Of a stretch of 39,480 nt of DNA, positions 4,862 to 37,007 are shown piece after piece. This DNA is from Verrucomicrobiota bacterium (GTDB lineage Bacteria; Verrucomicrobiota; Kiritimatiellia; Kiritimatiellales; Tichowtungiaceae). Each line of letters starts with the position of its first letter. Within the stretch, counting starts at the first letter, position 1. The stretch is taken from assembly GCA_030153935.1 (NCBI GenBank), contig JASKKX010000009.1:1-39480 (forward strand), given 5' to 3'. A program made the position numbers and the translations under genes. The notes under the pieces were generated by a model. The model saw only the letters and a list, made by a program, of their open reading frames with translations. It did not search any database and was not told the DNA's origin.

Positions 4862-5703
4862 TGGACTCCATCAAGATATTGAAAATGCGCGACGTCCTGA
4901 TGCAGAGCATCCGGGCGTTTTTCCATTCTGAAGGATTTATCGAAGTTGAAACCCCAATCCGCATGAAAACGCCGTGCATGGAGCTGCACATCGATGCCGA
5001 GCCATCCGGCAGCCGCTGGCTGCGCACCTCGCCGGAGCTGTATCATAAAAAACTGCTCGCGCAGGGGGCTGATAAAATATTCGAGATCGGCAAATGCTTT
5101 CGGCACGGGGAACGCGGCGATCTGCATCATCCCGAATACACCCTGCTCGAATGGTACCGTGCCGGTGGCGATTACACTGCCATGCTCGCCGACGTTGCCA
5201 AAATTCTTCGAGCAGTCGGAATTTCCACTGCCTGGAAACGCTGGACGGTCGCCGAGACCTACGAAAAATTTGCCGGCTGGAATCCGGTCGAAAACGTCGA
5301 TGCCGACCGGTTTGATCTGGATATGGTCGAGAAAATCGAGCCGGCCCTGCCGAAAGATGCGCCGGTCATTCTGATGGACTATCCCGCCGAATGCTGCGCC
5401 CTCGCGCGGCTCAAACCAGATAATCCGACGGTTGCCGAGCGCTGGGAGCTCTATCTGAACGGCATTGAAATCGCCAATGCGTACAGCGAACTGACCGATC
5501 CCGCTGAGCAGCGCGCCCGGTTCGGAAAATGGGGTGAACAGCGAAAAACACTTGGGAAAACCGTTTATCCCATTGACGAGGAATTTATCCGGTGTCTGGA
5601 AAAGATGCCGCCTGCCGGAGGCTGTGCGCTCGGCATTGACCGGCTGTTCATGGTGTTGATCGGCGCAGAAAGCCTCGACGATATCCTGCCGTTTCGCGAC
5701 TGA
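4861..5703 (+). CDS. epmA: EF-P--(R)-beta-lysine ligase EpmA (lysyl-tRNA synthetase paralogue)
   Basis: Class II aminoacyl-tRNA-synthetase-like enzyme without an anticodon-binding domain; it activates (beta-)lysine and attaches it to the EF-P lysine. 280 aa, somewhat shorter than the ~325 aa of the E. coli protein. Seen: motif 1 region (FIEVETPIRM), TSPELYHKKLLAQG, motif 2 (CFRHGERGDLHHPEYTLLEWY), the substrate region GIEIANAYSELTDP and motif 3 (GCALGIDRLFMVLIGA). It follows efp with a TGATG overlap, which fixes the start. The partner aminomutase EpmB, which makes beta-lysine, is not in this window. The gene ends directly against the end of nfeD on the other strand. Confidence 0.94.
   Translation: MDSIKILKMRDVLMQSIRAFFHSEGFIEVETPIRMKTPCMELHIDAEPSGSRWLRTSPELYHKKLLAQGADKIFEIGKCFRHGERGDLHHPEYTLLEWYRAGGDYTAMLADVAKILRAVGISTAWKRWTVAETYEKFAGWNPVENVDADRFDLDMVEKIEPALPKDAPVILMDYPAECCALARLKPDNPTVAERWELYLNGIEIANAYSELTDPAEQRARFGKWGEQRKTLGKTVYPIDEEFIRCLEKMPPAGGCALGIDRLFMVLIGAESLDDILPFRD
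5222..5238. repeat. Dispersed palindrome TTTCCA-N5-TGGAAA (exact copy, inside epmA)
   Basis: TTTCCA-ctgcc-TGGAAA, 12 of 12 consensus bases. One of about ten copies in the window. Confidence 0.6.
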
Positions 5704-7170
5704 TCAACTCGTCTCAACCACAATCCGGCTTCCGTGGGCTTCAACGATGCGCACCGCGGTTCCCTTTTCAATGAACTCCCCGCGTGTAATCACATTGACG
5801 CGTTCATCGCCGAACAATGCACGCCCCGCCGGATGCAGATTCATTTCCGCGATTCCTTCTTTGCCGATCAGATCACTGTGGTCATGCGCCGCGGTAAAGC
5901 CTCCCTGCCTGTCTGTGCTCTGTCCGAGCACCAGCGGACGGACAACCCGTGATTTCGGCAGGTATTTTCCGGCGAAAAATCCGAGCACAACGGTACCGAC
6001 CATGGCAACCGCCAGATTGCCCAGTGCATGCTGAAAGGTTGAACCTGCTCCCGAAAAGTCCGGAATAGATTTTCCCGGAAGCTTCCAGCTCATGGCATTG
6101 ATCAATGAAATAAGAATAATCGCAAAGCCGCTGAGTCCAAGCACACCGAAGCCGGGCGTGATGAACACTTCCACAAAGAGCAGGGCGAATCCGATAATGA
6201 AAAACACAATATCTTCCATCCCTGCCAGCCCGGCAATGTGATGGCCGAAAAAGAAGAGCGCCAGCGCGGCGGCTCCGATAATCCCCGGCAGGCCGAAGCC
6301 CGGGGTTTTAATCTCCAGATAAATGCCGCCCAGTCCGATCATCATCAGGATCGGCGCAATGGCCGCGATGACGCGGGCGAGCTTTTCGGCGGGCGTGACT
6401 TCAAGAATTTTAACTTCGGCGTCCGGCAAACCGGCGGCGGCGAGCATGGCGGGCACATCCGCCACAGTGCCTTCGGAAAGAATCCCTTCCGCCTCGCTGG
6501 CAGTCAGGGTGAGCAGTTCGCCGGCTTTGCTGATGACATTGGTTCCGACAACATATTCGGCCTCCCGCCTCACCATGGCCTCCGCCAATGCGGGGTCATG
6601 GCCGCCCTGTTCCGCGGCAACCCGCACCATGGCGGCAACCCCGGATTTCATTTTCTCTTCGACATCTTCATTGAGGTCCTGCACCCCGCCTCCCGGCCCC
6701 ATTACAATCGGTGTGGCCGCGCCGATAACACTGCCGGGCGCCATGTAGATATGCGGGGTGGACAGCGCAATGATGGCCCCTGCCGAATACGCATCGCGCT
6801 CTACAAACGTATAGACCGGGGTTTTAATTTCCCTGATAATCCCGAGAATATCGCGGGTAATGTCCACCCGCCCGCCGGGGGTATCCATCACAAAAACAAT
6901 CGCATCCGCCTTTTCCTTTTCAGCTTCGGTGACGCCGCGGCGGATTACATAGAGCAACGCCGGTTCAATCTGTTCTTTAATCGGAATTTCATAGACCAGC
7001 GGTTTTTTCCAATCAGTGGAAGAAATCGGCTGTGCATTTTCAGGGCTTGGATCCGGGAGCGGTGGAAAAGGCTTCGCATTGGTGGAACAGTAACCAACGG
7101 GAATGGCGGAAATCAGGGCGGCAAGCAGAATGACAATCAGCGTATGTTGTGCTTTCATAAAGCAAACCAT
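5704..7170 (-). CDS. NfeD family long-form membrane serine protease (ClpP-class)
   Basis: 488 aa, long NfeD (NfeD1b type): signal/anchor at residues ~1-28 (MKAQHTLIVILLAAL then a Cys), a ClpP/crotonase-like protease domain (~55-240) with the nucleophile motif AYSAGAIIALS and the following APGSVIGAATPI, a membrane block of about four to five helices (~265-420), and a C-terminal OB-fold NfeDC domain (~425-488, with GKEGIAEMNLHPAG). Archaeal members cleave hydrophobic C-termini such as that of stomatin; no stomatin/SPFH gene is adjacent here, unlike many NfeD loci. The start may be the ATG at 7170 or the second Met four codons in (7158); no clear ribosome binding site decides it. Convergent with epmA with no bases between the stop codons. 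Confidence 0.9.
   Translation of the reverse strand: MVCFMKAQHTLIVILLAALISAIPVGYCSTNAKPFPPLPDPSPENAQPISSTDWKKPLVYEIPIKEQIEPALLYVIRRGVTEAEKEKADAIVFVMDTPGGRVDITRDILGIIREIKTPVYTFVERDAYSAGAIIALSTPHIYMAPGSVIGAATPIVMGPGGGVQDLNEDVEEKMKSGVAAMVRVAAEQGGHDPALAEAMVRREAEYVVGTNVISKAGELLTLTASEAEGILSEGTVADVPAMLAAAGLPDAEVKILEVTPAEKLARVIAAIAPILMMIGLGGIYLEIKTPGFGLPGIIGAAALALFFFGHHIAGLAGMEDIVFFIIGFALLFVEVFITPGFGVLGLSGFAIILISLINAMSWKLPGKSIPDFSGAGSTFQHALGNLAVAMVGTVVLGFFAGKYLPKSRVVRPLVLGQSTDRQGGFTAAHDHSDLIGKEGIAEMNLHPAGRALFGDERVNVITRGEFIEKGTAVRIVEAHGSRIVVETS
7006..7022. repeat. Dispersed palindrome (11 of 12, inside nfeD)
   Basis: TTTCCA-atcag-TGGAAG. Read on the minus strand it lies in the codons for TDWKK. Confidence 0.5.
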
Positions 7171-7187
7171 ACTGAATCTGCAGGAAA

Positions 7188-7350
7188 ATGAAAATAAAAC
7201 TCAATGAACATGCATTCGAAGCCGAAGAGGGGTTAACGCGTTTCGGATTGCGGGATGCCTCGGTTCCACCGACAGGCTTCGTCGCCCCTGGTCAGCGGCA
7301 GTTCCCTGCCATCGTCGTGCCGTTAAGAATCAACACCTCCGCCAGTGAAC
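7188..7350 (+). pseudogene. Rearranged fragment of a ThiS-like domain (second part inverted)
   Basis: Bases 7190-7257 match 8568-8635, the start of the intact ThiS-ThiF gene, at about nine of ten positions, and would encode MKIKLNEHAFEAEEG. The homology then stops on the plus strand. The minus strand of about 7350-7262 continues it: it reads AEVLILNG followed, after a one-base shift, by ELPLTRGDEACRWNRG. This matches ADVLILNG...APLAEGDEVCLIERG of the intact protein, including GGCGACGAAG-TGT/TGC at the DNA level. So this is a decayed paralogue whose second half was flipped. A 96-codon plus-strand frame runs across it (7188-7478) but makes no sensible protein after the first ~24 residues. Confidence 0.75.
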
Positions 7351-7495
7351 GCACGGTATCCGGTCAGCCGTTTTGTCTTGAACCCCCCCCTCCGCCGAAA
7401 TATAAAGACGCCGGTTTCCGGCCAAATCTGCAACGGGCGAATTTCCGTGCTGGGAAGAACAATTTTATCAGATATTGAGTAAAAAGGAGAAACAA

Positions 7496-8242
7496 ATGAC
7501 AAAATCAATTTTGATCACTGGCGCGACATCCGGGTTTGGAAAAGCCTGTGCAGAGTATTTTGCGGCGCAGGGCTGGCTGCTGATTCTGACCGGACGGCGC
7601 GTTGAGAGATTGGAGCAATTGCAAAAACAGTTAGGCGACCGCGTTCGCTGCAGTATTCCTTTGGATGTATGTGACCGGAAGCTGGTTTTTGAGAAACTCG
7701 GGTCATTGGCCGATATCGACGTATTGCTGAATAACGCCGGACTGGCTCTGGGCTTGGAGCCGTCGTGGGAAACGGATATCAACGATTGGGATACTATGGT
7801 TGATACGAATGTCAAGGGAGTGATGTACTGTACCCGAGCGGTACTTCCGCAGATGGTCAAAAACAATCGCGGGCATGTTGTCAATATCGGTTCAATCGCC
7901 GGCAGATGGCCTTATCCGGGAGGCAACGTTTATGGCAGCACCAAGGCTTTTGTTCAACAGTTCAGCCGGAATCTGCGCGCTGATTTGCTGGGAACTCAGG
8001 TGCGGGTGACTTACCTGGCCCCGGGGATGGCTGAAAGTGAATTTTCCAAGGTGAGATTTAAGGGAAATAATGAACAGGCAAGCAAGGTTTATCAGGGAAC
8101 AGAGCCTTTAATTCCGCAGGATATCGCTGAAACTGTTTTCTGGGTCGTCAATCGACCGGCGCATGTCAATATCAATGCGATCGAAATTATGCCTGTGGAT
8201 CAGGCCTGGGGGCCCCTTGCGGTTCACAGGGAAAAAGATTAG
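7496..8242 (+). CDS. ydfG: NADP-dependent 3-hydroxy acid / L-allo-threonine dehydrogenase, YdfG-type SDR
   Basis: 248 aa classical short-chain dehydrogenase, the same length as E. coli YdfG and alike throughout. Seen: nucleotide-binding TGATSGFG, TGRR (an arginine pair suiting NADP), NNAGLALGLEP, the catalytic Ser in NIGSIAGRWPYPGGN and YGSTK (Tyr-x3-Lys), then VRFKGNNEQA and the C-terminal PAHVNINAIEIMPV. Family enzymes oxidise serine, allo-threonine and 3-hydroxy acids and also reduce malonic semialdehyde. The start is set at ATG 7496 because AAGGAG sits at 7484-7489; a TTG at 7475 is in frame but unlikely. It stands alone between debris of two other genes. Confidence 0.93.
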   Translation: MTKSILITGATSGFGKACAEYFAAQGWLLILTGRRVERLEQLQKQLGDRVRCSIPLDVCDRKLVFEKLGSLADIDVLLNNAGLALGLEPSWETDINDWDTMVDTNVKGVMYCTRAVLPQMVKNNRGHVVNIGSIAGRWPYPGGNVYGSTKAFVQQFSRNLRADLLGTQVRVTYLAPGMAESEFSKVRFKGNNEQASKVYQGTEPLIPQDIAETVFWVVNRPAHVNINAIEIMPVDQAWGPLAVHREKD

Positions 8243-8389
8243 GGGTCCGTTCCGCGGTGTGCTGGAACGGATTGGCCGTAAAGCAATCCGACTCGGACGT
8301 TCAGATTTTGCAGATATATTCATACGGCGTGAGACGGCTGCATTTGGACGGTATGCCGACTCAACCCGGAGATTCCCTCCAATCTGCGG

Positions 8390-8540
8390 ATGGCCGGGAC
8401 GGGTGGCGCGCGGCGGAATTTCCGGCGCGGCGCTCGGTTCCGGAATTGTTTTTATGCTCCCGGTGATCGTGTTGAAACGTCTGTTTGCCGCGTTTATCAT
8501 TCTTACCGGCCTGCATATTCTGGTAAAATCGTTTTGGAAC
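8390..8540 (+). pseudogene. C-terminal remnant of a TauE/SafE (DUF81) anion permease
   Basis: The 320 bases between ydfG and thiF hold no intact gene. In the frame covering about 8400-8535 they read ISGAALGSGIVFMLP then LKRLFAAFIILTGL. This is the typical last two-helix segment of TauE/SafE permeases (G.LG......P...LRRLFA..LL..G). No start or N-terminal helices are recognisable upstream (8243-8390), and the frame runs on into the start of the next gene. I read it as the tail of a lost gene; the call rests on a short motif. Confidence 0.5.
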
Positions 8541-8562
8541 CTTCCGTCGAAAGGAGCACTGC

Positions 8563-9402
8563 GTGCTGAAAATAAAACTCAATGAACATGCTTTCGAAGC
8601 CGAAGAGGGGGTAACGCTTTTCGGCCTGCGCGATTTGTGCAGGCCGGGAGCCGATGTCCTGATTCTGAATGGCGCCGCGATGAATGAAGACGCACCTTTG
8701 GCGGAAGGCGACGAAGTCTGCCTGATTGAGCGCGGCACAATGCCGCCGCCGGAAGAGCTGGAGGCGCTGATGGTCGCGCGCCATACGCCCGGTGTCCATG
8801 CGAAACTGAAAGCCGCGACGGTCGGCATCGCCGGACTTGGCGGGCTCGGCTCGTCTGCCGCTGTTGCGCTGGCGCGGGTCGGGATCGGACGGCTGATCAT
8901 CGCCGATTTTGATGTCGTTGAGCCGAGCAACCTGAACCGCCAGCAGTATTTCGTCGATCAGATCGGACAGCTCAAGACGGAAGCGCTGGTTTCCAATCTT
9001 CGGAAAATCAATCCCTATGTCACGGTGGAGGCGCACACAGTGAAACTGACGCCGGAGAATCTTTTTCCGCTGTTTGGAACTGTCGATGTCATGATCGAGG
9101 CGTTTGACCGCGCGGATCAGAAGGCGATGCTCCTGCAGGCTTTTACGGCGCAGCGGCCGGATACACCGTTTATCGGCGCGTCGGGCATGGCCGGCTTCGG
9201 TTCCGGTGAGACCCTCGGAATCCGGAAAATGGGAAATGAAGTCTATATTGTCGGCGATCTGGAAACCGGCGCGCGGCCCGGCTGCGGCCTGATGGCCCCG
9301 CGCGTCGGTATTGCCGCCCACATGCAGGCCAATCTCGCTCTTCGCCGGATCGTCGAGGGCGGTTCTGCCGCAGGAGATGATCCCCGTATTTCCAACCGGT
9401 GA
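8563..9402 (+). CDS. thiF: ThiS-ThiF fusion, sulfur-carrier adenylyltransferase family (ThiF family 2)
   Basis: 279 aa. Residues ~1-62 form a ubiquitin-like ThiS domain (KIKLNEHAFEAEEG...DVLILNG...EGDEVCLIERG); ~85-275 form an E1-like ThiF/MoeB domain with the ATP-binding GLGGLGS, the Asp in IADFDVVE and the arginine motif NLNRQQYF. E1-like enzymes adenylate the C-terminal Gly-Gly of a sulfur carrier for thiamine thiazole synthesis. The fused domain has no terminal Gly-Gly, so it probably docks or mimics rather than carries sulfur; a separate ThiS is expected elsewhere. No zinc CxxC pairs are seen. The GTG start at 8563 is supported by AAGGAG at 8551-8556. A decayed paralogue of the N-terminus lies at 7188. 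Confidence 0.88.
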   Translation: MLKIKLNEHAFEAEEGVTLFGLRDLCRPGADVLILNGAAMNEDAPLAEGDEVCLIERGTMPPPEELEALMVARHTPGVHAKLKAATVGIAGLGGLGSSAAVALARVGIGRLIIADFDVVEPSNLNRQQYFVDQIGQLKTEALVSNLRKINPYVTVEAHTVKLTPENLFPLFGTVDVMIEAFDRADQKAMLLQAFTAQRPDTPFIGASGMAGFGSGETLGIRKMGNEVYIVGDLETGARPGCGLMAPRVGIAAHMQANLALRRIVEGGSAAGDDPRISNR

Positions 9403-9423
9403 ACCCTTTTGCCGGTTTTTTTT
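9394..9423 (+). terminator. Rho-independent terminator after thiF
   Basis: AACCGG (9394-9399) pairs with CCGGTT (9412-9417), followed by a T run to about 9423. The stem begins just before the thiF stop codon. Confidence 0.7.
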
Positions 9424-9430
9424 CAGAAAG

Positions 9431-9482
9431 GTGTAAAATTTACATTCTGGTTTTCCGCCAGCTGAACAGGCTGTGCTATATT
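9431..9482 (+). promoter_or_regulatory. Promoter of the symporter gene, sister of the nadA promoter
   Basis: Extended -10 TGC-TATATT (TATATT at 9477-9482). Upstream are GTGTAAAA (9431) and ATTCTGGTTTTCC (9444-9456), all at exactly the offsets found 2880 bp further on before nadA. A degenerate copy of the dispersed palindrome (TTTCCG-ccagc-TGAACA, 9452-9468) occupies the slot that holds a near-perfect copy in the nadA promoter. Confidence 0.6.
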
Positions 9483-9516
9483 CCGGAAAATGTCAGTTCT
9501 TATCAGAGAGGGTGTT

Positions 9517-10863: not shown

Positions 10864-10874
10864 GACCGAAAGAG

Positions 10875-10899
10875 CCCCTTTTCAAGAAAAAGGGGTTTT
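10875..10899 (+). terminator. Terminator-like hairpin between symporter and serine dehydratase
   Basis: CCCCTTTT (10875-10882), a five-base loop, AAAAGGGG (10888-10895), then TTTT. It would reduce or stop read-through into the dehydratase, which begins 40 bases later. Confidence 0.65.
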
Positions 10900-10939
10900 G
10901 ATGCCGGCAGTGACGTGTTTGAATGGAGATCGCGGCGGA

Positions 10940-12302: not shown

Positions 12303-12310
12303 CTGAAGAG

Positions 12311-12362
12311 GTGGAAAAGTTGAATTCTGGTTTTCCAATGCTTGGGAAAACGATGCTATATT
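12311..12362 (+). promoter_or_regulatory. nadA promoter with an embedded palindrome
   Basis: Extended -10 TGC-TATATT (12357-12362), preceded by GTGGAAAA (12311) and ATTCTGGTTTTCC (12324-12336). The palindrome at 12332-12349 fills the expected -35/spacer region, where a bound protein would block RNA polymerase. The -10 ends only eight bases before the nadA ATG, so transcription would start very near or at the start codon (a leaderless or very short leader mRNA). Confidence 0.6.
12332..12349. repeat. Dispersed palindrome (one extra G) in the nadA promoter
   Basis: TTTCCA-atgct-TGGGAAA. Adjacent Ts and As extend the symmetry to TTTTCCAA...TTGGGAAAA. Confidence 0.6.
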
Positions 12363-12370
12363 CCAGCCCT

Positions 12371-18160: not shown

Positions 18161-20253
<2,093 letters not shown>

Positions 20254-20333: not shown

Positions 20334-20498
20334 TTAGTCGTCTGTCGGCTCGAAGTATTCTTTGGCGGCGCCGCACTCGGGACAAACCCAGTCGTCGGGA
20401 AGGTCTTCGAAAGCTGTTCCGGCCGGATATCCGTTGTCGGGATCGCCGACTGCCGGATCATAAATATAACCACAGGGTACACATGCGTATTTTTTCAT
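20334..20498 (-). CDS. Rubredoxin
   Basis: 54 aa small iron protein that carries single electrons at a Cys4 iron site. Two binding knuckles are visible: [10 protein letters not shown] at residues 6-15 and CPECGAAK at 39-46, with the conserved core aromatic pair and the acidic [20 protein letters not shown] between them. AGGAGG sits at 20503-20508, ideally spaced from the ATG. The start is 25 bases after the end of nifJ on the same strand and a terminator follows, so it is probably cotranscribed with PFOR. Usual roles are electron supply to oxygen or superoxide reductases, or acceptance from PFOR-linked reductases; none of those partners is in the window. Confidence 0.95.
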
Positions 20499-24379: not shown

Positions 24380-24997
24380 TCAGTCTATCATGTCAAAAAT
24401 TCGTTTGGCGCATTCAGCCTTGGTGAGGGGGCCCCATCGTTCAACTGTTTTTAAATCGATCCAGGTAAAGATTCCGTTTTCAGCACCGAGAGTGGCCGGA
24501 GTATTCAGAACGATGCCGTCCAGATTTTTTGAAACCAGTTTTTCGCGCGCGCGGACTTCTCCGTCGTGCGTCTGGAGCGCAAAGCCGACCGCTTTCTGAT
24601 CTGTCCGTTTACAGGCGCAGAGTGTCGCGGCGATATCGGGCGTCGGCTGGAGTTCAATCGAGAGGTTCTTTTCAGCCTTTGGAAGTTTTTCGGTCGATTT
24701 TTTCAACGGTTGAAAATCGGCGACGGCGGCGGCGAAAATAATGAGATCTGCGGCGGGAAACCTGTCCCGTGCGGCGGCCAGCATTTCTTCAGCTCCCGTG
24801 ACGCGACAGACGGGTCTTTCAAGATTCGGGAGATGGGGTTCAGGAACAGGACCCGAAATGAAGGTGACATCCGCCCCGCGGTCGAGCGCCTCTTCGGCGA
24901 TCGCTTTCCCCATTTTACCGGAGCTGGCGTTGCCGATGAAACGGACCGGATCGAAATATTCATGAGTCGGTCCGGAGAGAATGAGAACCTTTTTCAT
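24380..24997 (-). CDS. coaB: Phosphopantothenate--cysteine ligase (CoaB half of a split Dfp)
   Basis: Coenzyme A pathway: joins cysteine to 4'-phosphopantothenate. 205 aa, corresponding to the C-terminal half of the usual fused CoaBC/Dfp. Seen: SGPTHEYFDPVRFIGNASSGKMG (the family signature around the nucleotide site, residues ~8-30), GADVTFISGP, AAAVADFQPLKKS and PTPDIAATL then QKAVGFALQTHD. Starts within the stop of coaC (ATGA overlap at 24994-24997), so the two halves are made together as separate chains. Last gene of pyrH-frr-coaC-coaB. Confidence 0.92.
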   Translation of the reverse strand: MKKVLILSGPTHEYFDPVRFIGNASSGKMGKAIAEEALDRGADVTFISGPVPEPHLPNLERPVCRVTGAEEMLAAARDRFPAADLIIFAAAVADFQPLKKSTEKLPKAEKNLSIELQPTPDIAATLCACKRTDQKAVGFALQTHDGEVRAREKLVSKNLDGIVLNTPATLGAENGIFTWIDLKTVERWGPLTKAECAKRIFDMID

Positions 24998-25545
24998 GCG
25001 AGAGCTTTATTGATCACGTCGAGAATCTCCGCAGGTTCCGCCATGCGCCCTGTACCTTCGGTGCCGCAGGCCAGAAGACCGCTTCCGGGACCGATGCGCC
25101 GCCAGCCCTGCTTTTCCAGGGTTTGGATGTTCTTCTGCACGACGGGATTATCCCACATCTGCGTGTTCATGGCCGGACAGAAAAATTTGACACATTTTCT
25201 GCTGAGCGAAAGGGCCCCGGCGCTGACAATGTCGTCGCCGAAGCCGGCGGCCAGCTTGCCGATGATATCGGCTGTGGCCGGCAGAACGGCAAAGAGATCG
25301 GCTTCGGTGGCGGGGTAAAGGTGCGGATAAAGCTGTCCTTTATCCGATGCCGGATGTTCGGGGAAAAGTTCTGTACGCACTTCTTTCAGGGACAGTGCCG
25401 CGAAGGTCAGGGGAGTGACAAACCGGCAGGCGGCAGGAGTCATTGCCACCTGCACGTCGTGACCGGCTTGCTTCAGTGCACTGACAACGCTGGCGGTCTT
25501 ATACGCTGCAATTCCCCCGGTGACTCCTATAAGGACTCGTTTCAT
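24994..25545 (-). CDS. coaC: Phosphopantothenoylcysteine decarboxylase (CoaC half of a split Dfp)
   Basis: FMN-dependent decarboxylase giving 4'-phosphopantetheine. 183 aa HFCD-family flavoprotein. Seen: GVTGGIAAYKTASVVSAL at the N-terminus, the active-site His in YPHLYPATEADL, PAMNTQMWDNPVV (the conserved PAMNxxMW), and the substrate-clamp motif SGLLACGTEGTGRM with its catalytic Cys. One departure: the usual PATAN motif reads PATAD. Lies 47 bases downstream of frr on the same strand and overlaps coaB by four bases. Confidence 0.92.
   Translation of the reverse strand: MKRVLIGVTGGIAAYKTASVVSALKQAGHDVQVAMTPAACRFVTPLTFAALSLKEVRTELFPEHPASDKGQLYPHLYPATEADLFAVLPATADIIGKLAAGFGDDIVSAGALSLSRKCVKFFCPAMNTQMWDNPVVQKNIQTLEKQGWRRIGPGSGLLACGTEGTGRMAEPAEILDVINKALA
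25113..25129. repeat. Partial dispersed palindrome (10 of 12, inside coaC)
   Basis: TTTCCA-gggtt-TGGATG, with the same spacer as the copy at 20196. On the gene strand it encodes QTLEK. Confidence 0.35.
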
Positions 25546-26887: not shown

Positions 26888-27329
26888 TAAATTCCTCTCG
26901 AATGCTTCGGCAGACTGTAAAAAATCCCCGGCGAAGTGTAAATTTCCAAACCGTGTAAAAATCACGTTGCATTCTTTCACGGTTGCCGAGTCAAATGCAA
27001 TTACAGGCCGGCGGCTGAATTCAGTGCCGCCCGCTGAAACGGTCACGGCTGTTTTTGAGCCCGGGTTATCAGGCATCATATCCGCCGCCGAACTGCGGAT
27101 TGATTACCGGCGGGATGCTCTTGTCTGCCGGTGTTTATCATCCCTGGCAGTGACGTTATGCCGTTCTGGTTTGAACTGGAGGTCGGGCGCGATATGTATC
27201 GGACGAAGAAACCCAGTTCTTGAGCTGATGTTCTTCTGTTTCCGGCATAATCATTTGACAAAGCAAAGCTCATCGCCTAAGTTTTCCGCCTTTGTAAAAA
27301 TTTTACCCGCTTAAGGGGGTGTTAAAAAT
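26888..27329. other. 442-base divergent intergenic region between pyrH and rpsU
   Basis: No convincing gene on either strand. The pyrH side has three TGTAAA-type elements: CTGTAAAAAA (26915), GTGTAAATTT (26936) and GTGTAAAAAT (26953). The rpsU side has a TTGACA at 27255-27260. The middle (about 26990-27240) shows nothing I recognise. Confidence 0.5.
27255..27283 (+). promoter_or_regulatory. Candidate rpsU-rpsT promoter
   Basis: Consensus TTGACA (27255-27260), a 17-base spacer, and a weak TAAGTT at 27278-27283, about 47 bases before rpsU. Confidence 0.4.
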
Positions 27330-27835: not shown

Positions 27836-27853
27836 TTTCCAATCCCTTGGAAA
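27836..27853. repeat. Dispersed palindrome (N6 variant) directly after rpsT
   Basis: TTTCCA-atccct-TGGAAA, extended by further T and A to an 8-base half-site. It begins within three bases of the rpsT stop and is separate from the terminator that follows. Confidence 0.6.
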
Positions 27854-30122: not shown

Positions 30123-30130
30123 CGGCAGGC

Positions 30131-30149
30131 CCGTTCGCCGGCTGAACGG
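30131..30149. other. Hairpin after serA
   Basis: CCGTTC-gccggct-GAACGG. It lies just beyond the serA stop and has no T run; possible transcript-end structure. Confidence 0.4.
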
Positions 30150-30270
30150 ACACGTTCTCCGTCGGCAGCGGGCCGCAGGGCGGAGAGAATCAACGCGTTT
30201 CCTCGGGTCGTTGCGGTTTCGTTGCGGTGTACATCCCGGTTGGTACATTCGTGGCTGAGCGTAATATGAA

Positions 30271-30421
30271 GGCTTGGCACACGCTGTATGAGTCGATCCT
30301 GCAAACCCCCGTTTTCAGGCGACGGCCATATTTGGATCCCGCCGGGCCGGGTACAGATTTTCTAAACGCAGCGTGTGCCATGCCGTGGACCGCAAAACCT
30401 GTTCAAGTGCCTCGAACAGGT
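30271..30421. repeat. Inverted-repeat structures in the serA-purH gap
   Basis: GGCTTGGCACACGCTG (30271-30286) pairs with CAGCGTGTGCCATGCC (30369-30384) with one mismatch over 16 bases. Next to it is a perfect 8-bp stem, ACCTGTTC (30397-30404) with GAACAGGT (30414-30421). They may be an end of the decayed insertion sequence or a structured RNA. No coding frame here is convincing, and 30150-30270 shows nothing else. Confidence 0.45.
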
Positions 30422-30429
30422 GTGCACTG

Positions 30430-30670
30430 ACCGGGCATAAAGAGGCGGGGAGACAAGAAGCCGCTTTCCCCGCAGCGCTCAGGACGGCATTGAGCGGATC
30501 GCCCTCGATTCCTTTGAGCCGCAGCGATCCGTTCGATGTTCGCGTTTCAGAGGTCCGATTCCCGGCTCGATGGCCGCCCGACGTTTCATCTGTCGCCGGG
30601 GGCTGCGCTCCATTGCTTCACAGTCGTGAAGCCTCGCTCGTCTCCGGCTCGGGTCATAAATAGATTTTTG
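30430..30670 (-). pseudogene. Remnant of an IS5-family transposase (C-terminal end)
   Basis: On the minus strand, one frame reads KRRAAIEPGIGPLKREHRTDR (about 30587-30525) and, after a one-base shift, the adjacent frame reads LKGIEGDPLNAVLSAAG (about 30523-30470). Together these match the conserved end of IS5-type DDE transposases (AIEP.IGHLK.DHRMDR..LKG..GDA.NA.L.AAG). The catalytic Glu region is within AIEP. Start, N-terminal domain and clear terminal repeats are missing; stops and shifts make it non-functional. The remaining bases to 30850 hold no recognisable gene. Confidence 0.72.
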
Positions 30671-30850
30671 CAAGGTTTTGAGTCCGTCTCGACTTCTTCC
30701 CGTACATTCTGTGATCCGGTCTGAAATCATTCACTCAAAGAACTTTTGCAGAACCGACCCGTTATTTTCAATGATCGGAAAAAAAGTTTTGTTGGTTTGC
30801 AGTTCATGATTTAATCCCGGTTCATATAACTGATTTGAAGGGATCCAATC

Positions 30851-32464
30851 ATGAGTAAAATTGAACGGGCGCTGCTGAGCGTTTCAGATAAAACCGGGAT
30901 TGTTGACTTTGCCAAGGCACTGACGGAGCGCGGCGTGGAATTGCTTTCCACCGGCGGAACCGCCAACGCTCTGCGCGACGCGGGAATTCCCGTCAAAGAC
31001 GTTTCCGAATTCACCGGGTTTCCGGAAATGCTCGGCGGCCGCGTCAAAACACTGACTCCGCAGATCCATGCCGGACTGCTTCACTTGCGAGACAGCGAAG
31101 AGCACACGAACACAATGAAAAAACACGGGCTGAAGCCGATCGATCTCGTTTGTGTTACCCTTTATCCTTTCGAAGCCACTGTTGCCAACCCGGAGGTTAC
31201 GCTGGCCGAAGCCATCGAGCAGATCGACATCGGCGGTCCGGCCATGATCCGCTCCGCCGCCAAAAACATGAAATTTGTCACGGTGATCACCGAGCCGGCC
31301 GACTATTCCCGCGTACTTGAGTCAATGGATGTTAACGGAGGGGACACGACGGAAGAACTCCGCTTTGAACTCGGTCAAAAAGTGTTCGCCCGCGTCGCGG
31401 AATACAACGCCGCCATCGCCGGTTATCTTGCGGAACAGATGCCCTCCGCCGCACCGCGCCCGTTCGTAAAAACCGCATCCAAGGGCGTCGAACTGCGCTA
31501 CGGCGAAAACTCGCATCAGAGAGCGTGGCTCTATACCGACGCAACGGTAACAGAAGCCTGCATTGCCCACACCGACGTGCTGCACGGCAAGGAAATGAGC
31601 TACAATAACTACGTCGACGGCGAAGGTGCGCTCGAAGCGGTAAAAGAACTCACCGGCAAGCCCGGCGTCGCCGTCATCAAACACACCAACCCGTGCGGCT
31701 ATGCCACCGGCACAACGCTGGCGGAAGCCTTCGAGGCCGCCTGGAGCGGCGATCCGGTTTCCGCCTTCGGCAGCGTGATTGCCGTCACTGAAAAAATCGA
31801 TCTGGCGACTGCTGAATGTCTGAAAGGCCGTTTCATTGAAGCGCTGATCGCGCCGGACTTCGATGCCGACGCGCTCGAACTGCTGAAGACCAGGAGCAAA
31901 AACATCCGCTTGCTCAAACTGCGCGCACCGCTGTCCAAACCCGCACCGCGCAAAATGGTCAAAGACATTAACGGCGGAATCCTTGTGCAGGATGTCGACA
32001 CCGAATTGATCACGGAATGGAAAGACGTCACCCAAACCGCATTCGACCCATCCAAACGGGCGCTGGCCGAATTCGGTATTGCCGCCGCCAAACACACCAA
32101 ATCCAACGCCATTATGATTGTGCAGGAGTATAAACCAGGACAGTTCCGCGTACTCGGCATGGGCGCAGGGCAGCCCAACCGCGTCGATTCCCTGCGCAAA
32201 CTGGCTGTTCCGAAAGCGGTTGAAAATCTCAAACTTCAGAATCCGGGAATCACCGAAGAAAAAATCGCAAAAACGATCGGCGACTGTATTTTTGTTTCCG
32301 AAGCGTTCTTTCCGTTCGCCGACAGCATCGACGAAGCACACGCCGCCGGCGCGCGCTTCATCGTCCAACCCGGCGGTTCCATTCGCGACAATGAAGTCAT
32401 CGCCGCCTGCGATAAATACGGCATCGCCATGGCCTTCACAGGAATGAGGCATTTTAAACATTAA
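30851..32464 (+). CDS. purH: Bifunctional AICAR formyltransferase / IMP cyclohydrolase
   Basis: Last two steps of IMP synthesis. 537 aa, usual length. N-terminal cyclohydrolase (MGS-like) domain with [45 protein letters not shown] and [15 protein letters not shown]-terminal transformylase with [24 protein letters not shown] (the Lys-His pair), [11 protein letters not shown] and [10 protein letters not shown]-like ([18 protein letters not shown]). GAAGGGATC lies before the ATG. It ends shortly before a phosphohexomutase. Confidence 0.96.
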
Positions 32465-32519
32465 AACCGTATGGAGTGCGGCAGCTTGCCTGCATCATCC
32501 GAAAGATCAGGAGATAAAA

Positions 32520-34037
32520 ATGGATCAAACATGGTTTAAACTGCAGAACGGCAGTGATGTGCGCGGAGTCGCACTGGACGGGGTTGTGGACGAACCGGTT
32601 ACCTTGACGCCTGAAATTGTCCGCCCGATCGGATTCGCCTTTGCGCAGTGGCTCTCAGAGAAGAAAGGGATCCCTGTGTCTGAACTGAACGTTGCGGTCG
32701 GCCACGATTCGCGTCTTTCAGCGGACAGGATCAAAACCGCGGTTTTCCAGGGGTTGGAAAAGGCAGGTTGCACAAAACTTGCCGACAGCGGGCTCTCTTC
32801 AACCCCGGCAATGTTCATGGCCACCGTGTTCGAAAATTATGCGTTCGACGGTTCGATCATGCTGACGGCAAGCCACCTGCCGTTTAACCGCAATGGGCTC
32901 AAATTCTTTACCCGTGACGGTGGACTCGAAAAACAGGACATTAAAAAGATTCTGACGATTGCAACAGAAACCGGCAGGTTCGATGCGCCGCCCGTTTCCA
33001 ATGTCCGGAGAATCAACCTGATGGACGACTATGCCGCGTCGCTGGTTGCCGCTGTTCGCAAAGGCGCGGGTCAGGGCGACACGCCGCTGGCCGGGCTCAA
33101 AATCATCGTCGATGCCGGCAACGGTGCCGGCGGCTATTTTGTCGGCAACGTTCTCCAGCCGTTAGGTGCCGATACGACCGGCAGCCAGTTCCTTGAGCCG
33201 GACGGCCGCTTCCCGAACCACATTCCCAATCCGGAAAACAAGGAGGCGATGGATGCCATCATTACTGCCGTTCAAAACAACAAAGCGGATCTTGGCATTA
33301 TTTTTGACACCGATGTGGACCGCGCCGGCGCGGTCGATCAGAACGGCAGGCCGATCAACCGCAACCGCTTTATCGCGCTGATGGCCTCCATTGTTCTTGA
33401 AGAACATCCCGGCAGTGTGATTGTGACCGACTCGGTGACTTCAACCGGCCTGAAATACTGGATTGAAGAAAAACTGGGCGGAGTCCATCACCGCTTCAAA
33501 CGCGGCTACAAAAACGTCATTAACGAATCCATTCGCCTGAACAAGGAGGGAAAAGAATCCTGGCTGGCGATGGAAACCTCCGGTCACGGTGCACTTAAAG
33601 AAAACTATTTTCTCGATGACGGCGCCTACCTGATTGCAAAAATCCTGACGAAGGCCGCGCAGCTCCATGCCGCCGGCAAAGGCGGAGTGGACCGCCTGGT
33701 GGCCGGACTGCCTGAACCTGCCGAAGCCAGGGAATATCGTGCAAAAATCAGAACAGAGGATTTCGATACATATGGCGACAACGTACTGAAAGAGTTTGAG
33801 CGATTTGTGGCGGATGAGCCGGGATGGTCGCTCACGCCGAACAACTATGAGGGCGTACACGTCACCGTCGACGCCGACCACGGCAACGGCTGGGTGCTGC
33901 TGCGCAAATCGCTGCACGATCCGGTTCTGCCGCTGAATATTGAAAGCGAAGAAACCGGCGGGGTTTCGAAAATTACGGAGCGTCTGCACACCTTCCTGTC
34001 CCGGTTCGATCAGCTTGATCTGCCGGACATGATATAG
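32520..34037 (+). CDS. Alpha-D-phosphohexomutase (phosphomannomutase/phosphoglucomutase, ManB type)
   Basis: Interconverts hexose 1- and 6-phosphates through a phosphoserine. 505 aa with four domains: the catalytic serine in LTASHLPFNRNGLKFF (residues ~120-135), the metal loop DTDVDRAG (~261-268), the sugar-binding METSGHGALKENYFLDDGAY (~344-363; usual GExSGH reads METSGH), and a C-terminal phosphate-binding region. The family cannot be resolved into glucose, mannose or glucosamine specificity from motifs alone. An in-frame copy of the dispersed palindrome lies within it (VFQGLEK). AGGAG lies just before the ATG. Confidence 0.9.
   Translation: MDQTWFKLQNGSDVRGVALDGVVDEPVTLTPEIVRPIGFAFAQWLSEKKGIPVSELNVAVGHDSRLSADRIKTAVFQGLEKAGCTKLADSGLSSTPAMFMATVFENYAFDGSIMLTASHLPFNRNGLKFFTRDGGLEKQDIKKILTIATETGRFDAPPVSNVRRINLMDDYAASLVAAVRKGAGQGDTPLAGLKIIVDAGNGAGGYFVGNVLQPLGADTTGSQFLEPDGRFPNHIPNPENKEAMDAIITAVQNNKADLGIIFDTDVDRAGAVDQNGRPINRNRFIALMASIVLEEHPGSVIVTDSVTSTGLKYWIEEKLGGVHHRFKRGYKNVINESIRLNKEGKESWLAMETSGHGALKENYFLDDGAYLIAKILTKAAQLHAAGKGGVDRLVAGLPEPAEAREYRAKIRTEDFDTYGDNVLKEFERFVADEPGWSLTPNNYEGVHVTVDADHGNGWVLLRKSLHDPVLPLNIESEETGGVSKITERLHTFLSRFDQLDLPDMI
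32744..32760. repeat. Dispersed palindrome (exact copy, in the phosphohexomutase gene)
   Basis: TTTCCA-ggggt-TGGAAA, extended by T and A on either side. Encodes FQGLEK. Confidence 0.6.
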
Positions 34038-34046
34038 CGCAGGATT

Positions 34047-34063
34047 TTTCCAGACAGTGGAAA
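34047..34063. repeat. Dispersed palindrome (exact copy) after the phosphohexomutase
   Basis: TTTCCA-gacag-TGGAAA, ten bases beyond the stop codon; extended by TT on the left. Confidence 0.6.
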
Positions 34064-34089
34064 CCGGCAAGATCCGCTTTTATAACATC

Positions 34090-34432
34090 TTTCCGTCGTT
34101 AAAGGTGATGGCATTGGAGGCGGTTTTGCCGGGACAGGGGAGGTGCCAGCAGGATAATGGAGCCCGCGGGCAGTCGCATAGGCCAGCAGCGGTATGATGA
34201 GGTATTGCGCGGCAGCGGCAGCAAAGACATCTCGCGGGCGGCGGAGCACCTGCTTGAGGTCAGCTGCCGAAAGCGTCATTCCCATGCCGAACAGGAGGAT
34301 CCCCGGCATCCAGCGAATGTCGGGCAGGATCCATCAGAAAGTGTTCAACCGCCAGAGGCTCCATCCGGCGAAAAAGAGAACGTCCAGTACAAAAAAATCG
34401 GTAAAAAGACGGCTTTTTTCAATACGGTTCAT
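34090..34432 (-). pseudogene. Degraded bile acid:sodium symporter (BASS/SBF) family gene
   Basis: On the minus strand, from ATG 34432: MNRIEKSRLFTDFFVLDVL, an in-frame stop near 34335, then GILLFGMGMTLSAADLKQVL (typical SBF helix: LFGMGLTLS..D) and QYLIIPLLAYATARGL. After a further frameshift comes CPGKTASNAITF, the family signature CPGGxASN, at about 34140-34104. The N-terminal helices and everything beyond the signature are missing. At least one stop and one frameshift make it inactive. It fills most of the 467-base gap before the SDR gene; 34433-34504 holds only the SDR leader. Confidence 0.78.
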
Positions 34433-34504
34433 GTGGCGTCGCTTGTTTTAATAACGTAAAATACACTGTGTTTTCAGAAAAATATTCAGCATAGAGGATT
34501 TTCA

Positions 34505-35188
34505 ATGAATCAAAAAGTTTTAGTGACAGGCGCTACACGCGGGATAGGGCGGGAAATAACAAAACAGCTCTGCGCGCTGGATTTCTCTGTATTTGCCACG
34601 GGGCGCGACCGGCAGCTGCTGGATCGTTTAAAAAAAGAAACAGGCTGTCAGGGGGCCGCTTGCGATCTGTCCGATGCCGAGTCGGTGATCTCGCTCTATA
34701 CACAGGCGGGCGAAGGGCTCGGCTCGATCGATGTACTCATCAATAATGCCGGTTTCAATCCCGGCAAGCGGCCGGTTGTCGAGGTGGATGCGGCGCAGCT
34801 TGATGCGTCGTATGCCGTCAATTTCCGTGCGCCTTATCTGCTCTGCCGTGAAGCGCTGAAAGAAATGGGTCAACGGGGGCGCGGGCATATTCTCAATGTG
34901 GTCAGTACGATTGCCCGGACGAGTGCGCCGAATTATTCGGCTTACTGCTCACTGAAGTACGCTCTGCACGGTTTTACTCTCTGTTTAATCAAAGAGGCAC
35001 GGCAGGTGGGTGTAAAAGTTACCGGTGTGTATCCTGGAGGTACCGATACCGACTTTCGCGCCGAGGAGCGTCCGGACTATCTGAAACCGGAATCCGCCGC
35101 GCAGATGATTGTGCAGTGCATTAATGCCCCGGACGATGTCGTGGTGCATGAACTGGTTTACCGTCCGATGGTTGAAAGCAATTTCTGA
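34505..35188 (+). CDS. Short-chain dehydrogenase/reductase of unknown substrate
   Basis: 227 aa classical SDR. Cofactor motif TGATRGIG near residue 8, TGRDRQLL (Arg suggests NADP), NNAGFNPG, catalytic Ser in NVVSTIART, and Tyr-x3-Lys in YSAYCSLKYAL; YPGGTDTDF follows. Somewhat short at the C-terminus for the family (~250 aa), lacking part of the substrate loop, so specificity cannot be guessed. AGAGGA lies before the ATG. Eight bases separate it from the peptidase gene, and the three genes SDR, M48 peptidase and Gfo/Idh oxidoreductase form one close-packed unit. Confidence 0.88.
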   Translation: MNQKVLVTGATRGIGREITKQLCALDFSVFATGRDRQLLDRLKKETGCQGAACDLSDAESVISLYTQAGEGLGSIDVLINNAGFNPGKRPVVEVDAAQLDASYAVNFRAPYLLCREALKEMGQRGRGHILNVVSTIARTSAPNYSAYCSLKYALHGFTLCLIKEARQVGVKVTGVYPGGTDTDFRAEERPDYLKPESAAQMIVQCINAPDDVVVHELVYRPMVESNF

Positions 35189-35196
35189 GAGGGCGT

Positions 35197-36015
35197 ATGA
35201 AAACAAAAACTGTTCTGTCTCTGGTTTGTCTTCTTTCAATCGCGGGGTGTACGGCCATGGATGCAGTGACGGGTCAGCAGACTCAAAATTTCTATTCACT
35301 GCAGGAGGACGTCGAACTCGGATCGGAAGTGTACAGCGAGACAATCGAGGAAATGCGTGCGCGCGGTGTACCGATCAATGCCGATCCGGCCCGTACGGCA
35401 CAGCTCCGGGAAATGGTGCAGCGAATCAGTTCGGTTTCCGACCTGCCTGAACTGCCCTACGAGGTGACGCTCATTCAGACGAACATTGTGAATGCGATGG
35501 CCGCTCCCGGCGGCAAAATCATGGTGTATGAGGGATTGTGGGACCCGGAGGACGGACTGGTTAAAGATGATGAGGAACTGGCCGCTGTGCTGGCGCATGA
35601 AATCGCGCATGTCAACTGCCGTCACTCTACCGAGTCGATGACCCGCCAGATGCTGCCGAATGCTCTGTTTCTCGGCGCGTCGATTTTCGCTCAGGCGAAG
35701 GACCGTGAAGACCTCGCGGTGGCTTTGAGCGGAGCATTTATGCTGTATAACGGAATCTGGGTGACTCGCTATTCGCGGCAGGATGAAATAGAGGCGGATT
35801 CCGTCGGTCTGATGTATATGGCCAAAGCAGGTTACGACCCGCGCGCCGCCCTGAGGATGTGGGACCGTGCCGCCCGTAACCGGAGTGGAGACGATCCGGC
35901 CGACAGTATTTTTTCCACCCATCCGGCCGACCGTGTCCGCCTGGAAAACCTGCGCACCAAACTGCCGGCCGCCTTGAATGTTTATGAAGCCGGTATCCAG
36001 AATCGCACATCATGA
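35197..36015 (+). CDS. M48-family zinc metallopeptidase lipoprotein
   Basis: 272 aa periplasmic or outer-membrane-anchored protease, related to BepA/LoiP/YcaL. Signal peptide with lipobox LSIAGC (Cys near residue 18). Peptidase domain (~70-245) with VLAHEIAHVNCRHS (HExxH; His, Glu, His) and the third ligand Glu in QDEIEADSVGLMYMAKAGYDP. The C-terminus STHPADRVRLENL is a family feature. Likely role: quality control of outer membrane proteins. GAGAGGG precedes the ATG. The stop overlaps the next ATG (ATGA at 36012-36015). Confidence 0.92.
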   Translation: MKTKTVLSLVCLLSIAGCTAMDAVTGQQTQNFYSLQEDVELGSEVYSETIEEMRARGVPINADPARTAQLREMVQRISSVSDLPELPYEVTLIQTNIVNAMAAPGGKIMVYEGLWDPEDGLVKDDEELAAVLAHEIAHVNCRHSTESMTRQMLPNALFLGASIFAQAKDREDLAVALSGAFMLYNGIWVTRYSRQDEIEADSVGLMYMAKAGYDPRAALRMWDRAARNRSGDDPADSIFSTHPADRVRLENLRTKLPAALNVYEAGIQNRTS

Positions 36016-37007
36016 AGGAAAAATTCCGCTGGGGAATAATCGGATGCGGACGGATTGCGCCGAAGTTTTTCCAGGCATTGGAAAACACGGGGGAAGGGCA
36101 TGTTGTCGCTGCGGCTTCCCGGTCGCTGCGGCGTGCCCGGAAACTTCAGGAAAAGCTTGGAGTTGAACGGATTTACGACAGCTATGCGGAAATGCTGGAT
36201 CGGGAAAAACTCGAGGCGGTTTATATTGCCACTACACATAACTTTCATGCTGAAAACACTAAACTCTGCCTGGAACACGGTCTGCCGGTACTGGTTGAGA
36301 AGTCTTTCACCCGCAATCTGCGGGAAGCCAACGAGCTGATCGCTTTAGCGCGACAAAAGAATCTGTTTCTGATGCAGGCGCTGTGGACACTGTTTAATCC
36401 GGCATCGGTAAAGGTGTGCGAATTGCTCCGTGCGGGTGCGATCGGTGAACTGAAGCATCTTCGTGCGGACTTCTGTGTCCGGATGCCGCGTTTGTCCTGG
36501 AAAATGATGCCGTGGAATCGGATGTATAATCCCTGGTTGTCTGGCGGTGCACTGCTTGATCTCGGGGTCTATCTCATTGCATTTTCCGATATGGTATTCG
36601 GCCGTCCACCGGTCCGGATCAGCGGAGGATCGGCAGAAAAAGCGATAACCGGTGTGGACAAGACATTTCAATGCAATCTGGATTATGGCCGCGGCCGCTG
36701 GGCTGAGCTGAGAGCCTCTTTTGTTGAAGGGCGTCCGCGAGATGCCGTCATTACCGGTACGAAAGGAGCCCTTCGTGTCCCTCATTTTTCAGGAACGGAC
36801 CGTATCGTTTTAACGCGGCCCGGCTGTGCCCCGGAAACAATTGAGTGCGGTCCGCCCGGGTTTGAACATGAAATCCGCGAGATGCACCGCTGCCTGCGTG
36901 AAGGACAAATTGAAAGTCCGGTGATGCCGCTCGATGAAACGCTCGAAATTATGCGGACCATGGATGCTCTGCGCGTTCAATGGGGTCTAAAGTATCCGGG
37001 CGAGTAA
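36012..37007 (+). CDS. Gfo/Idh/MocA family oxidoreductase
   Basis: 331 aa NAD(P)-dependent dehydrogenase of sugars or related alcohols, resembling the dihydrodiol/D-xylose dehydrogenase branch. Rossmann domain with WGIIGCGRIAPKFF near the N-terminus and AAASRS; VLVEKSFTRNLREANEL (the EKP-type motif reads EKS, with the catalytic Lys retained); substrate domain with GGALLDLGVYLIAF. Four-base overlap with the peptidase gene. The reason for joining a peptidase, an SDR and a sugar dehydrogenase is not evident from sequence. Contains an exact copy of the palindrome at 36068. Confidence 0.9.
   Translation: MKEKFRWGIIGCGRIAPKFFQALENTGEGHVVAAASRSLRRARKLQEKLGVERIYDSYAEMLDREKLEAVYIATTHNFHAENTKLCLEHGLPVLVEKSFTRNLREANELIALARQKNLFLMQALWTLFNPASVKVCELLRAGAIGELKHLRADFCVRMPRLSWKMMPWNRMYNPWLSGGALLDLGVYLIAFSDMVFGRPPVRISGGSAEKAITGVDKTFQCNLDYGRGRWAELRASFVEGRPRDAVITGTKGALRVPHFSGTDRIVLTRPGCAPETIECGPPGFEHEIREMHRCLREGQIESPVMPLDETLEIMRTMDALRVQWGLKYPGE
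36068..36084. repeat. Dispersed palindrome (exact copy, in the Gfo/Idh gene)
   Basis: TTTCCA-ggcat-TGGAAA, extended by TT and A. Encodes FQALEN near the N-terminus. Confidence 0.6.

Follow-up and report, generated by a model that had tools for sequence, protein, structure and literature searches.

Results

Palindromic sites in the window

The DNA analysed here, called the window throughout, is a stretch of 39,480 nucleotides from a Verrucomicrobiota bacterium of the class Kiritimatiellia (contig JASKKX010000009.1, positions 1 to 39,480), along which copies of the palindrome TTTCCA-N5-TGGAAA are dispersed in genes and between them. With up to two mismatches and counting both strands it holds 21 sites, compared with 2.46 ± 1.37 in 100 dinucleotide shuffles (largest 6). 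A preliminary description of the window had listed exact copies at 5222, 32744, 34047 and 36068 and copies matching 11 of 12 bases at 7006, 20196 and 20217, and all of these are present as given. Its near copies at 27836 (N6 spacer) and 25113 (10 of 12 bases) also stand, whereas the one at 12332, thought to have an extra base, has the usual N5 spacer and one mismatch. The excess it saw in "about ten close copies" is real but the list was incomplete, the 11-of-12 copies at 8990 and 26943 having been overlooked. The sites referred to below, with their score on the position weight matrix (PWM) described in the next section where one is given, are:

5222..5238, exact site inside epmA (EF-P lysine aminoacylase gene), PWM 19.3
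5586..5602, two mismatches, in epmA, PWM 14.7
7006..7022, one mismatch, in an NfeD-family gene (Pfam), PWM 21.8
8990..9006, one mismatch, in a thiF-like gene, PWM 25.5
9064..9080, two mismatches, 74 bp (7.05 turns) from 8990
12332..12348, one mismatch, in nadA, PWM 24.1
20196..20212, one mismatch, intergenic, 5' of pyrG (CTP synthase)
20217..20233, one mismatch, 21 bp (2 turns) from 20196
24669..24685, two mismatches, in a coaBC-like gene (DFP domain)
24700..24716, two mismatches, 31 bp (3 turns) from 24669
25113..25129, two mismatches, in a flavoprotein gene, PWM 14.1
26943..26959, one mismatch, in an amino-acid-kinase gene, PWM 16.5
27836..27853, N6-spacer form, intergenic, PWM 14.6
30765..30781, two mismatches, intergenic, 5' of purH, PWM 20.2
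32744..32760, exact, in a phosphoglucomutase-like gene, conserved in the genus
32995..33011, two mismatches, 251 bp (23.9 turns) from 32744
34047..34063, exact, intergenic, 9 bp past the phosphoglucomutase-like gene's stop codon, without a counterpart found in relatives
36068..36084, exact, in a GFO/IDH/MocA oxidoreductase gene, conserved in part of the genus

The sites are selected at the DNA level

The motif is genuine and far above chance: the genome of the window (2.04 Mb in 100 contigs) contains 135 exact sites and none of a reversed control pattern. An origin by chance or through codon usage can for practical purposes be discounted. FQxLE-type peptides are common in genes and reading frame 2 holds 36 of 66 genic sites, as codon usage would have it, but the excess survives synonymous shuffling. 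In the window together with G081, a member of the genus assembled as a single contig of 3,882,676 bp (53.0% GC in the sampled fifth), 620 predicted genes covering 734 kb carry 69 exact sites, whereas 100 synonymous-codon shuffles within those genes gave 4.2 ± 1.9 (largest 9), a 16-fold difference that bears out the earlier expectation of a count above a codon-preserving null. Genes were called with a home-made hexamer predictor, and all genic and intergenic counts given here are approximate.

The spacer length is strict, with 96 exact sites at N5 in the DNA of the window and G081 as against 0-3 at each of N0-N4 and N6-N11. From 260 sites with no more than one mismatch a PWM was derived and scanned over about 888 kb of the genus; 400 sites scored at least 10 and 445 at least 8, compared with 8 and 23 in reversed sequence, which amounts to some 450 clear sites per Mb. 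The consensus is (T)TTTCCA-R-N-S-N-Y-TGGAAA(A), a conserved unit of 17-19 bp in which the centre of the spacer is C or G in 96% of sites; within the genus 98% of spacers begin with A or G, and a T precedes the site in 63%. Other genera have their own spacer dialects, AAGSCTT in G012 and G065 and AATSATT in G090, around constant TTTCCA and TGGAAA, and the spacers of G222 and G230 begin with a pyrimidine (e.g. CGGTG, TGCCG).

The two outer spacer bases vary independently of each other. The inner ones are complementary in a fraction of 0.16 in the genus where independence predicts 0.28, and in 0.39 against 0.58 in G090; in G012 and G065 together they are symmetric in 76%, equal to expectation (0.76 and 0.76). 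An inner spacer less complementary than independence predicts argues against a hairpin and for a protein dyad. The centres of the half-sites are 11 bp apart, one turn of the helix, which is the usual geometry of a dimeric helix-turn-helix protein.

At 32744, where the site encodes the peptide FQGLEK, the half-sites of eight distinct orthologous sequences of the genus are 95% identical to the window and the spacer 68%; leucine is kept in seven of the eight and is encoded by TTG in six of those seven, TTG being 12% of leucine codons in G081. At 36068 the corresponding values for six distinct orthologues are 88% and 67%, and four of the six have the site or a one-mismatch form whereas two (L218, L224) have lost it. 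Conserved half-sites around a freer spacer, as the preliminary description had proposed, are therefore seen at two genic sites. For 20196 and 20217 the alignments hold only three and one sequences, with half-sites 83% identical and spacers 67% and 60%. Upstream of pyrG, compared in 13 of 14 genus genomes (G478 was left out), the first site (20196) is found in 8 of 13 sequences including the window (insertion-shifted in L473, weak in L472), the second, 21-22 bp further on, in 4 of 13 including the window, and no site was detected in five. The intergenic site at 34047 was not found in 11 aligned relatives, in which the region is mostly unalignable. The genic sites at 32744 and 36068 arise via substitution, without insertion of a site. 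Judged from these alignments, sites are kept yet turn over, as transcription-factor sites do.

Neighbouring sites lie on one face of the helix

The distances between sites in the genus (the window, G081 and three short stretches of G032) fall at 21-22, 31 (33 pairs), 32, 41-42, 52-53, 62-63, 72-75, 82-84 and 94-95 bp and so on to 156 bp, over an expected background of 0.2 pairs per base pair of distance. It is clear that neighbouring sites are nearly always spaced by whole turns of B-DNA and so occupy the same face of the helix; this is the main new result. With a period of 10.50 bp, R is 0.86 for 144 pairs 18-160 bp apart, and the 87 pairs at 36-160 bp give the same best period with R 0.83. 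Pairs inside one array are not independent, and in a jitter control that preserves this structure none of 2000 trials reached the observed phasing (largest 0.24). Phasing is as strong where both sites are genic (R 0.87, n=49), and since one 31-bp genic pair (L100, 537 and 568) spans two reading frames it is not explained by protein sequence. Within the window there are pairs at distances of 21, 31, 74 and 251 bp, or 2.0, 2.95, 7.05 and 23.9 turns; of three further pairs closer than 400 bp, that at 378 bp is integral (36.0 turns) and those at 339 and 364 bp are not.

Elsewhere in the class, other families show the same periodicity (R 0.82, 159 pairs) and strongly prefer a distance of three turns. 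Runs of three exact sites at intervals of 30-33 bp were found in 41 of 193 class genomes and never with the reversed control; the genome of the window lacks such a run, and within the genus 3 of 11 genomes contain a single one. The linkers within arrays are not conserved, their identity being equal to the expectation from column composition, and they lean to A/T at the ends and to G/C in the middle. Intergenic arrays of G090 are more regular than those of other families (22-31-31-30-22 at L165 and L169, 22-30-31-31-31-22 at L096), and single pairs of linkers are alike in G159 and in G090.

Phylogenetic distribution

Exact sites were counted in 387 genomes sampled across the phylum, 131 in the class of the window (its own genome included) and 256 outside. 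At least 20 sites were found in 36 of the 131: all six sampled from the genus (75-508 sites), 7 of 10 from the rest of the order (26-620) and 23 of 115 from other orders of the class (24-1363). No genome outside the class exceeded 8. A relative found through the pyruvate:ferredoxin oxidoreductase of the window, Verrucomicrobiota bacterium CSMAG_2814, has 116, while genomes labelled Lentisphaerae (three), Lentisphaeria (two) and Victivallales (one) have 0-2 each and eight other genomes searched have 0-5, the five being in a Candidatus Aminicenantes genome that also has one control match. The contrast can be sharp within a single genus, with 5 sites each in G050 and G087 and 380-620 in G035, G157 and G225. 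Four genomes of one family (G038, G171, G074, G264) have 8-11 exact sites, and G230 has 19 where three genus mates have 193-252; these five are possibly genomes losing the system. In 48-80 kb from each of five zero-site genomes no other palindrome is as prominent as TTTCCA-N5 is in G081 and G012, the best being CGCCCC-N3 in G017 with 8 copies.

Genomic setting of the sites

In G081, 66 of 92 exact sites lie in predicted genes, at 0.34 per kb, and the density between genes is 3.6 times higher (1.22 per kb). The genic share differs between genomes (3/51 in G012, 1/12 in G065, 0/7 in G159, 6/23 in G090, 3/7 in G032, and 4/4 in the 20 kb of G056). Intergenic sites are present in gaps of every type, most densely within 100 bp after stop codons and least densely in divergent gaps, both in G081 with the window and in the pooled other genomes. 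This distribution bears on a rather unlikely alternative, a global transcription regulator in the style of AbrB or Lrp, for which the sites would be operators, the arrays would act, negatively or positively, on many promoters and genic sites would be weak or decoys. Some sites do stand upstream of genes, as at pyrG, and the clusters of archaeal Lrp sites described in PMC2995911 are spaced centre to centre by two or three turns, as here. Because density peaks after stop codons and is lowest in divergent gaps, a promoter regulator is nevertheless disfavoured; the predominance of genic sites in G081 is also against it, and the genes adjoining site clusters there, judged by eye from their first residues, are of unrelated kinds. 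Among the array neighbours examined no gene family recurs at three independent loci, and related neighbours were seen only for pairs of loci (L105/L185 at 57% identity, L163/L198 at 71% and 51%, L182/L184 with a short match).

The enrichment after stop codons, together with the palindromic form, would also suit RNA hairpins or transcription terminators, and in G012, where as in G065 most spacers are palindromic, sites and terminator-like hairpins coincide at six gene ends against an expectation of 3.2. In G081, however, the two are independent across 261 gene ends (9 with both, 8.8 expected), the deficit of inner complementarity in the genus and G090 is the opposite of what a stem would need, and no Rfam family reaches threshold in the window or in the prophage stretch L133 described below. 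As phasing and genic sites are also left unexplained, this reading is scarcely credible. In zero-site G015 a fraction of 0.15 of 13 gene ends carries a weak site (PWM score at least 10).

Extragenic palindromic repeats of the REP/BIME kind, or remnants of mobile elements, come to mind with the intergenic tandem arrays of several families; the shared layout of two G090 loci, the similar third and the alike linker pairs of G159 and G090 suggest some copying. Such an origin is very improbable for the sites as a whole, in which only the 17-19 bp unit is conserved and linkers stay at the level of column composition. The substitutions that produced 32744 and 36068 and the phasing of genic pairs such as that of L100 speak against it too, and the sites of G081 are largely genic, though few of those in G012 are.

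By quartile of GC content at third codon positions (GC3), genes carry 0.17 sites per kb in the lowest quartile and 0.39, 0.51 and 0.29 in the others. Fewest sites in the lowest-GC3 genes is the opposite of what a xenogeneic silencer would show. These genes are likely to be foreign, and their shortage of sites would agree with a self-recognition tag on native DNA (an uptake-like sequence, or a mark for defence or repair) acquired by adapted phages, as would the patchy distribution, the spacer dialects between genera and the sites in four phages close to the genus prophage. We regard such a tag as improbable: the GC3 trend is not monotonic, and a tag has no need of a dyad whose copies keep helical phase for as many as 15 turns, known uptake sequences being single, non-dyad words.

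From its GC skew, G081 would have its origin at around 1.4 Mb and its terminus at around 3.45 Mb. Sites occur all round this chromosome with strong over-dispersion between stretches, and exact sites taken alone are seemingly denser near the presumed origin (25 in six stretches between 1.2 and 1.7 Mb, compared with 67 in the remaining 35).

Phages and a prophage carry phased arrays

The G081 sample has its largest array, nine sites with spacings of 22, 41, 31, 31, 32, 31, 31 and 22 bp, inside a prophage (L133:3580-3837, about 0.703 Mb in G081), in a 2.2-kb stretch without a confident gene over which a second prediction run placed a weak reading frame. DNA polymerase and primase-like genes are present in the prophage, whose terminase, portal and protease genes are like those of a contig in IMG/VR that has an eight-site array at the equivalent place, upstream of the terminase gene. 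Among 13 viral contigs with a related portal protein, the four closest (L394, L395, L396 and L397; 78-100% identity) hold 11-23 sites, with 1-3 for the reversed control, while the nine others (54-66% identity) hold 0-1. Long phased arrays of 8 and 11 sites are present in two of the four and absent from two, so that arrays of 8 to 11 sites stand upstream of the terminase gene in L133, L394 and L395; a 21-bp pair of sites near the start of the stretch is common to all four viral contigs. Within this phage type, then, the phages nearest the genus prophage have gained rather than avoided sites. The zero-site relatives have no other repeated palindrome, only weak words in 3-5 copies and A/T runs.

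Two further contigs with Mu-type transposition genes have three neighbouring sites each, spaced 31 and 31 bp in L272 and 31 and 19 bp in L273. Among viral contigs at large, four have two sites close together and at least 120 stretches have a single longer exact match. One of these four (L271), in an unrelated-looking phage, has its pair 46 bp or 4.4 turns apart, probably by chance.

Candidate proteins

Protein families were compared with the sites in 33 genomes of the class, 17 site-bearing and 16 with zero or near-zero sites. Lrp/AsnC (PF01037) matches the geometry, in that its sites lie on one face at two or three turns and distances of 21-22 and 31-32 bp dominate here, but its distribution does not follow the sites (17/17 site-bearing genomes and 13/16 others). 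Its recognition helix, as assigned by us, differs among the six site-bearing genomes in which it is readable, the helix of zero-site G007 being similar to the one in G148 (8 of 20 rows were fully readable). AbrB/MazE (PF04014) has a suitable half-site, TTCCA-N5-TGGAA fitting the AbrB-type TGGNA in each half; it is present in 11/17 site-bearing genomes and 7/16 others and was undetected in G000, G081, G065, G095, G047 and G148. The variable Lrp helix and the absence of PF04014 from six of 17, the single-contig G081 among them, both count against the global regulator considered above.

Rrf2 (PF02082) occurs in 17/17 and 14/16 genomes, one of the latter (G084) below the cut-off. G000 and G032 possess just one Rrf2, and the best match per genome shows a close counterpart of it in G050 and G087, both near zero in sites. 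HU (PF00216) is present in all 33, in 2-3 copies in 17/17 site-bearing genomes and 13/16 others. G136 has ten HU-family matches where the other 32 genomes have 1-4. MraZ (PF02381) is found in 17/17 and 13/16; sites lie within 350 bp upstream of mraZ in only 4/17, an arrangement that a regulator would predict, and zero-site G007 has two weak sites 32 bp apart there. ParB is present in all 33, and 14 of the 17 site-bearing genomes have exactly one ParB_N match and hence no second paralogue, which tells against the Noc-like principle put forward in the preliminary description. An Lrp, MraZ, Rrf2, HU or ParB whose specificity has changed elsewhere would formally be compatible with the presence of these families in all site-bearing genomes. 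For MraZ, or for the sole Rrf2 of G000 and G032, this is unlikely because the sequences, compared by eye, differ little between G050/G087 and G035/G157/G225.

Other features of the window

Within 4295-5703 an open reading frame that by its look resembles EF-P is immediately followed by epmA. The start of a ThiS/ThiF-like gene is present twice (7188-7250 and 8568-8640), the first copy being seemingly truncated. On the minus strand at 20334-20498, adjoining the pyruvate:ferredoxin oxidoreductase gene, a 54-residue open reading frame reads as rubredoxin-like and has matches in several genomes of the genus.

Discussion

On balance we think it somewhat probable that the palindrome is the site of a homodimeric DNA-binding protein specific to the class, which assembles on one face of the DNA across the genome and whose task is mainly architectural. 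Conserved half-sites, a freer spacer, phasing and a genome-wide spread in and between genes all fit a dimeric protein with a global role, as first proposed, rather than a transposon end. The protein would probably be of helix-turn-helix type, with one subunit on each half-site. Dimers on the same face would cooperate, neighbours two or three turns away being favoured and phase being kept to about 15 turns; this could come about by lateral cooperation or by the docking of many dimers on a common flat scaffold, for which a protein filament, another segment of DNA or the membrane are candidates of our own suggestion. Protein contact at two or three turns could produce the commonest spacings, whereas phase at 4 to 15 turns would need weak intermediate sites, stiff protein bridges or a common docking surface.

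The main task would most likely be the packing, bridging or anchoring of the chromosome, perhaps with local effects on transcription; we infer an architectural role because the sites are so numerous, occur in genes, are sparser in divergent gaps and are also carried by phages. Of the three roles first put forward, nucleoid architecture would thus be the best fit; a broad promoter regulator is disfavoured, and an uptake tag leaves the phased palindrome unexplained. Some temperate phages, rich in sites and in dense phased arrays, appear to be folded into the same system, or to exploit it, in what would presumably be their hosts. It is possible, and we suggest it tentatively, that the whole is a chromatin-like system in which a strictly sequence-specific nucleoid protein, with same-face sites selected at whole turns in genes and between them, chromosome-wide and in some phages, lays the DNA along a common scaffold.

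Several observations weigh against this reading. Fewer than 20 exact sites, and in many cases 0-2, are found in 95 of the 131 sampled class genomes, patchily by family, so that the function would have to be dispensable or replaceable. The protein was not found, in that Lrp, ParB, AbrB/MazE, Rrf2, HU and MraZ all fail to track the sites in the panel of 33 genomes. The density plot that had been envisaged shows no origin-terminus gradient in G081 (rho -0.21, p 0.19; one complete chromosome, 41 stretches), and therefore no chromosome-scale layout that would directly support an architectural role. Some orthologous positions have lost their sites, both upstream of pyrG and at 36068, and in the pyrG region of L469 a second site lies 56 bp (5.3 turns) away, off phase. 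The phasing in phages is also weaker (R 0.60 for 123 pairs with at most three mismatches), and the third site of L273 stands only 19 bp from its neighbour.

A literature search by titles and the starts of abstracts, with subscription journals and preprints outside its scope, found nothing on this motif. Among known systems, AbrB has the site arrangement TNCCA-N4-TGGNA. AbrB and Abh of Bacillus subtilis bind bipartite TGGNA sites genome-wide, and the likeness lies in the half-site, TGGAA fitting TGGNA, and in the many sites per chromosome (PMC11135676). Here, by contrast, the spacer is N5, the half-site is the longer TGGAAA, phasing extends over many turns and AbrB/MazE was undetected in six site-bearing genomes. 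Lrp-type regulators, Ss-LrpB among others, are described as binding clusters of palindromes on one helix face at two or three turns and wrapping the DNA, and the clustering, the face and the spacing are all shared with the present sites (PMC2995911). The differences are a stricter 12-base site with a C/G centre, hundreds to more than 1000 copies and a class Lrp that does not track the sites.

Most nucleoid proteins of bacteria have little sequence specificity, and those that are specific, MatP and Noc, use tens of sites; Noc/NBS and MatP/matS are dispersed palindromes read by a dedicated chromosome-organisation protein. The present palindrome, likewise dispersed over the chromosome, may be analogous, but there is no second ParB in 14/17 site-bearing genomes, no origin-terminus trend in G081 and a far larger number of sites; matS is confined to the terminus region whereas these sites lie all round the G081 chromosome, and we know of no phased arrays described for either system. 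The palindrome thus fails a tested defining feature of each of Lrp, AbrB, Noc or MatP. The sopC locus of the F plasmid and other partition centromeres are arrays of palindromes at near-integral helical turns, as here, but with one locus per replicon where these have many. REP/BIME elements are arrayed palindromes enriched after stop codons, and share both traits; the sites described here lack conserved flanks, are abundant in genes of the genus and are phased.

HIP1 of cyanobacteria (GCGATCGC) is present in and between genes. This lineage-frequent palindrome, described as of unsettled function, is the nearest case of a lineage-wide iterated palindrome, and differs in being an 8-mer linked to orphan methyltransferases rather than a bipartite 17-mer that is phased and has a free spacer (PMC4390886). 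What sets the present system apart is that, with hundreds to more than 1000 strict sites per genome on a 10.5-bp ruler, sequence by itself reveals the geometry of a protein-DNA assembly. If the interpretation given here is correct, the motif would lead to a new protein that organises the chromosome, would let same-face cooperation be tested genomically over many distances and would show how phages adapt to the chromatin of their hosts.

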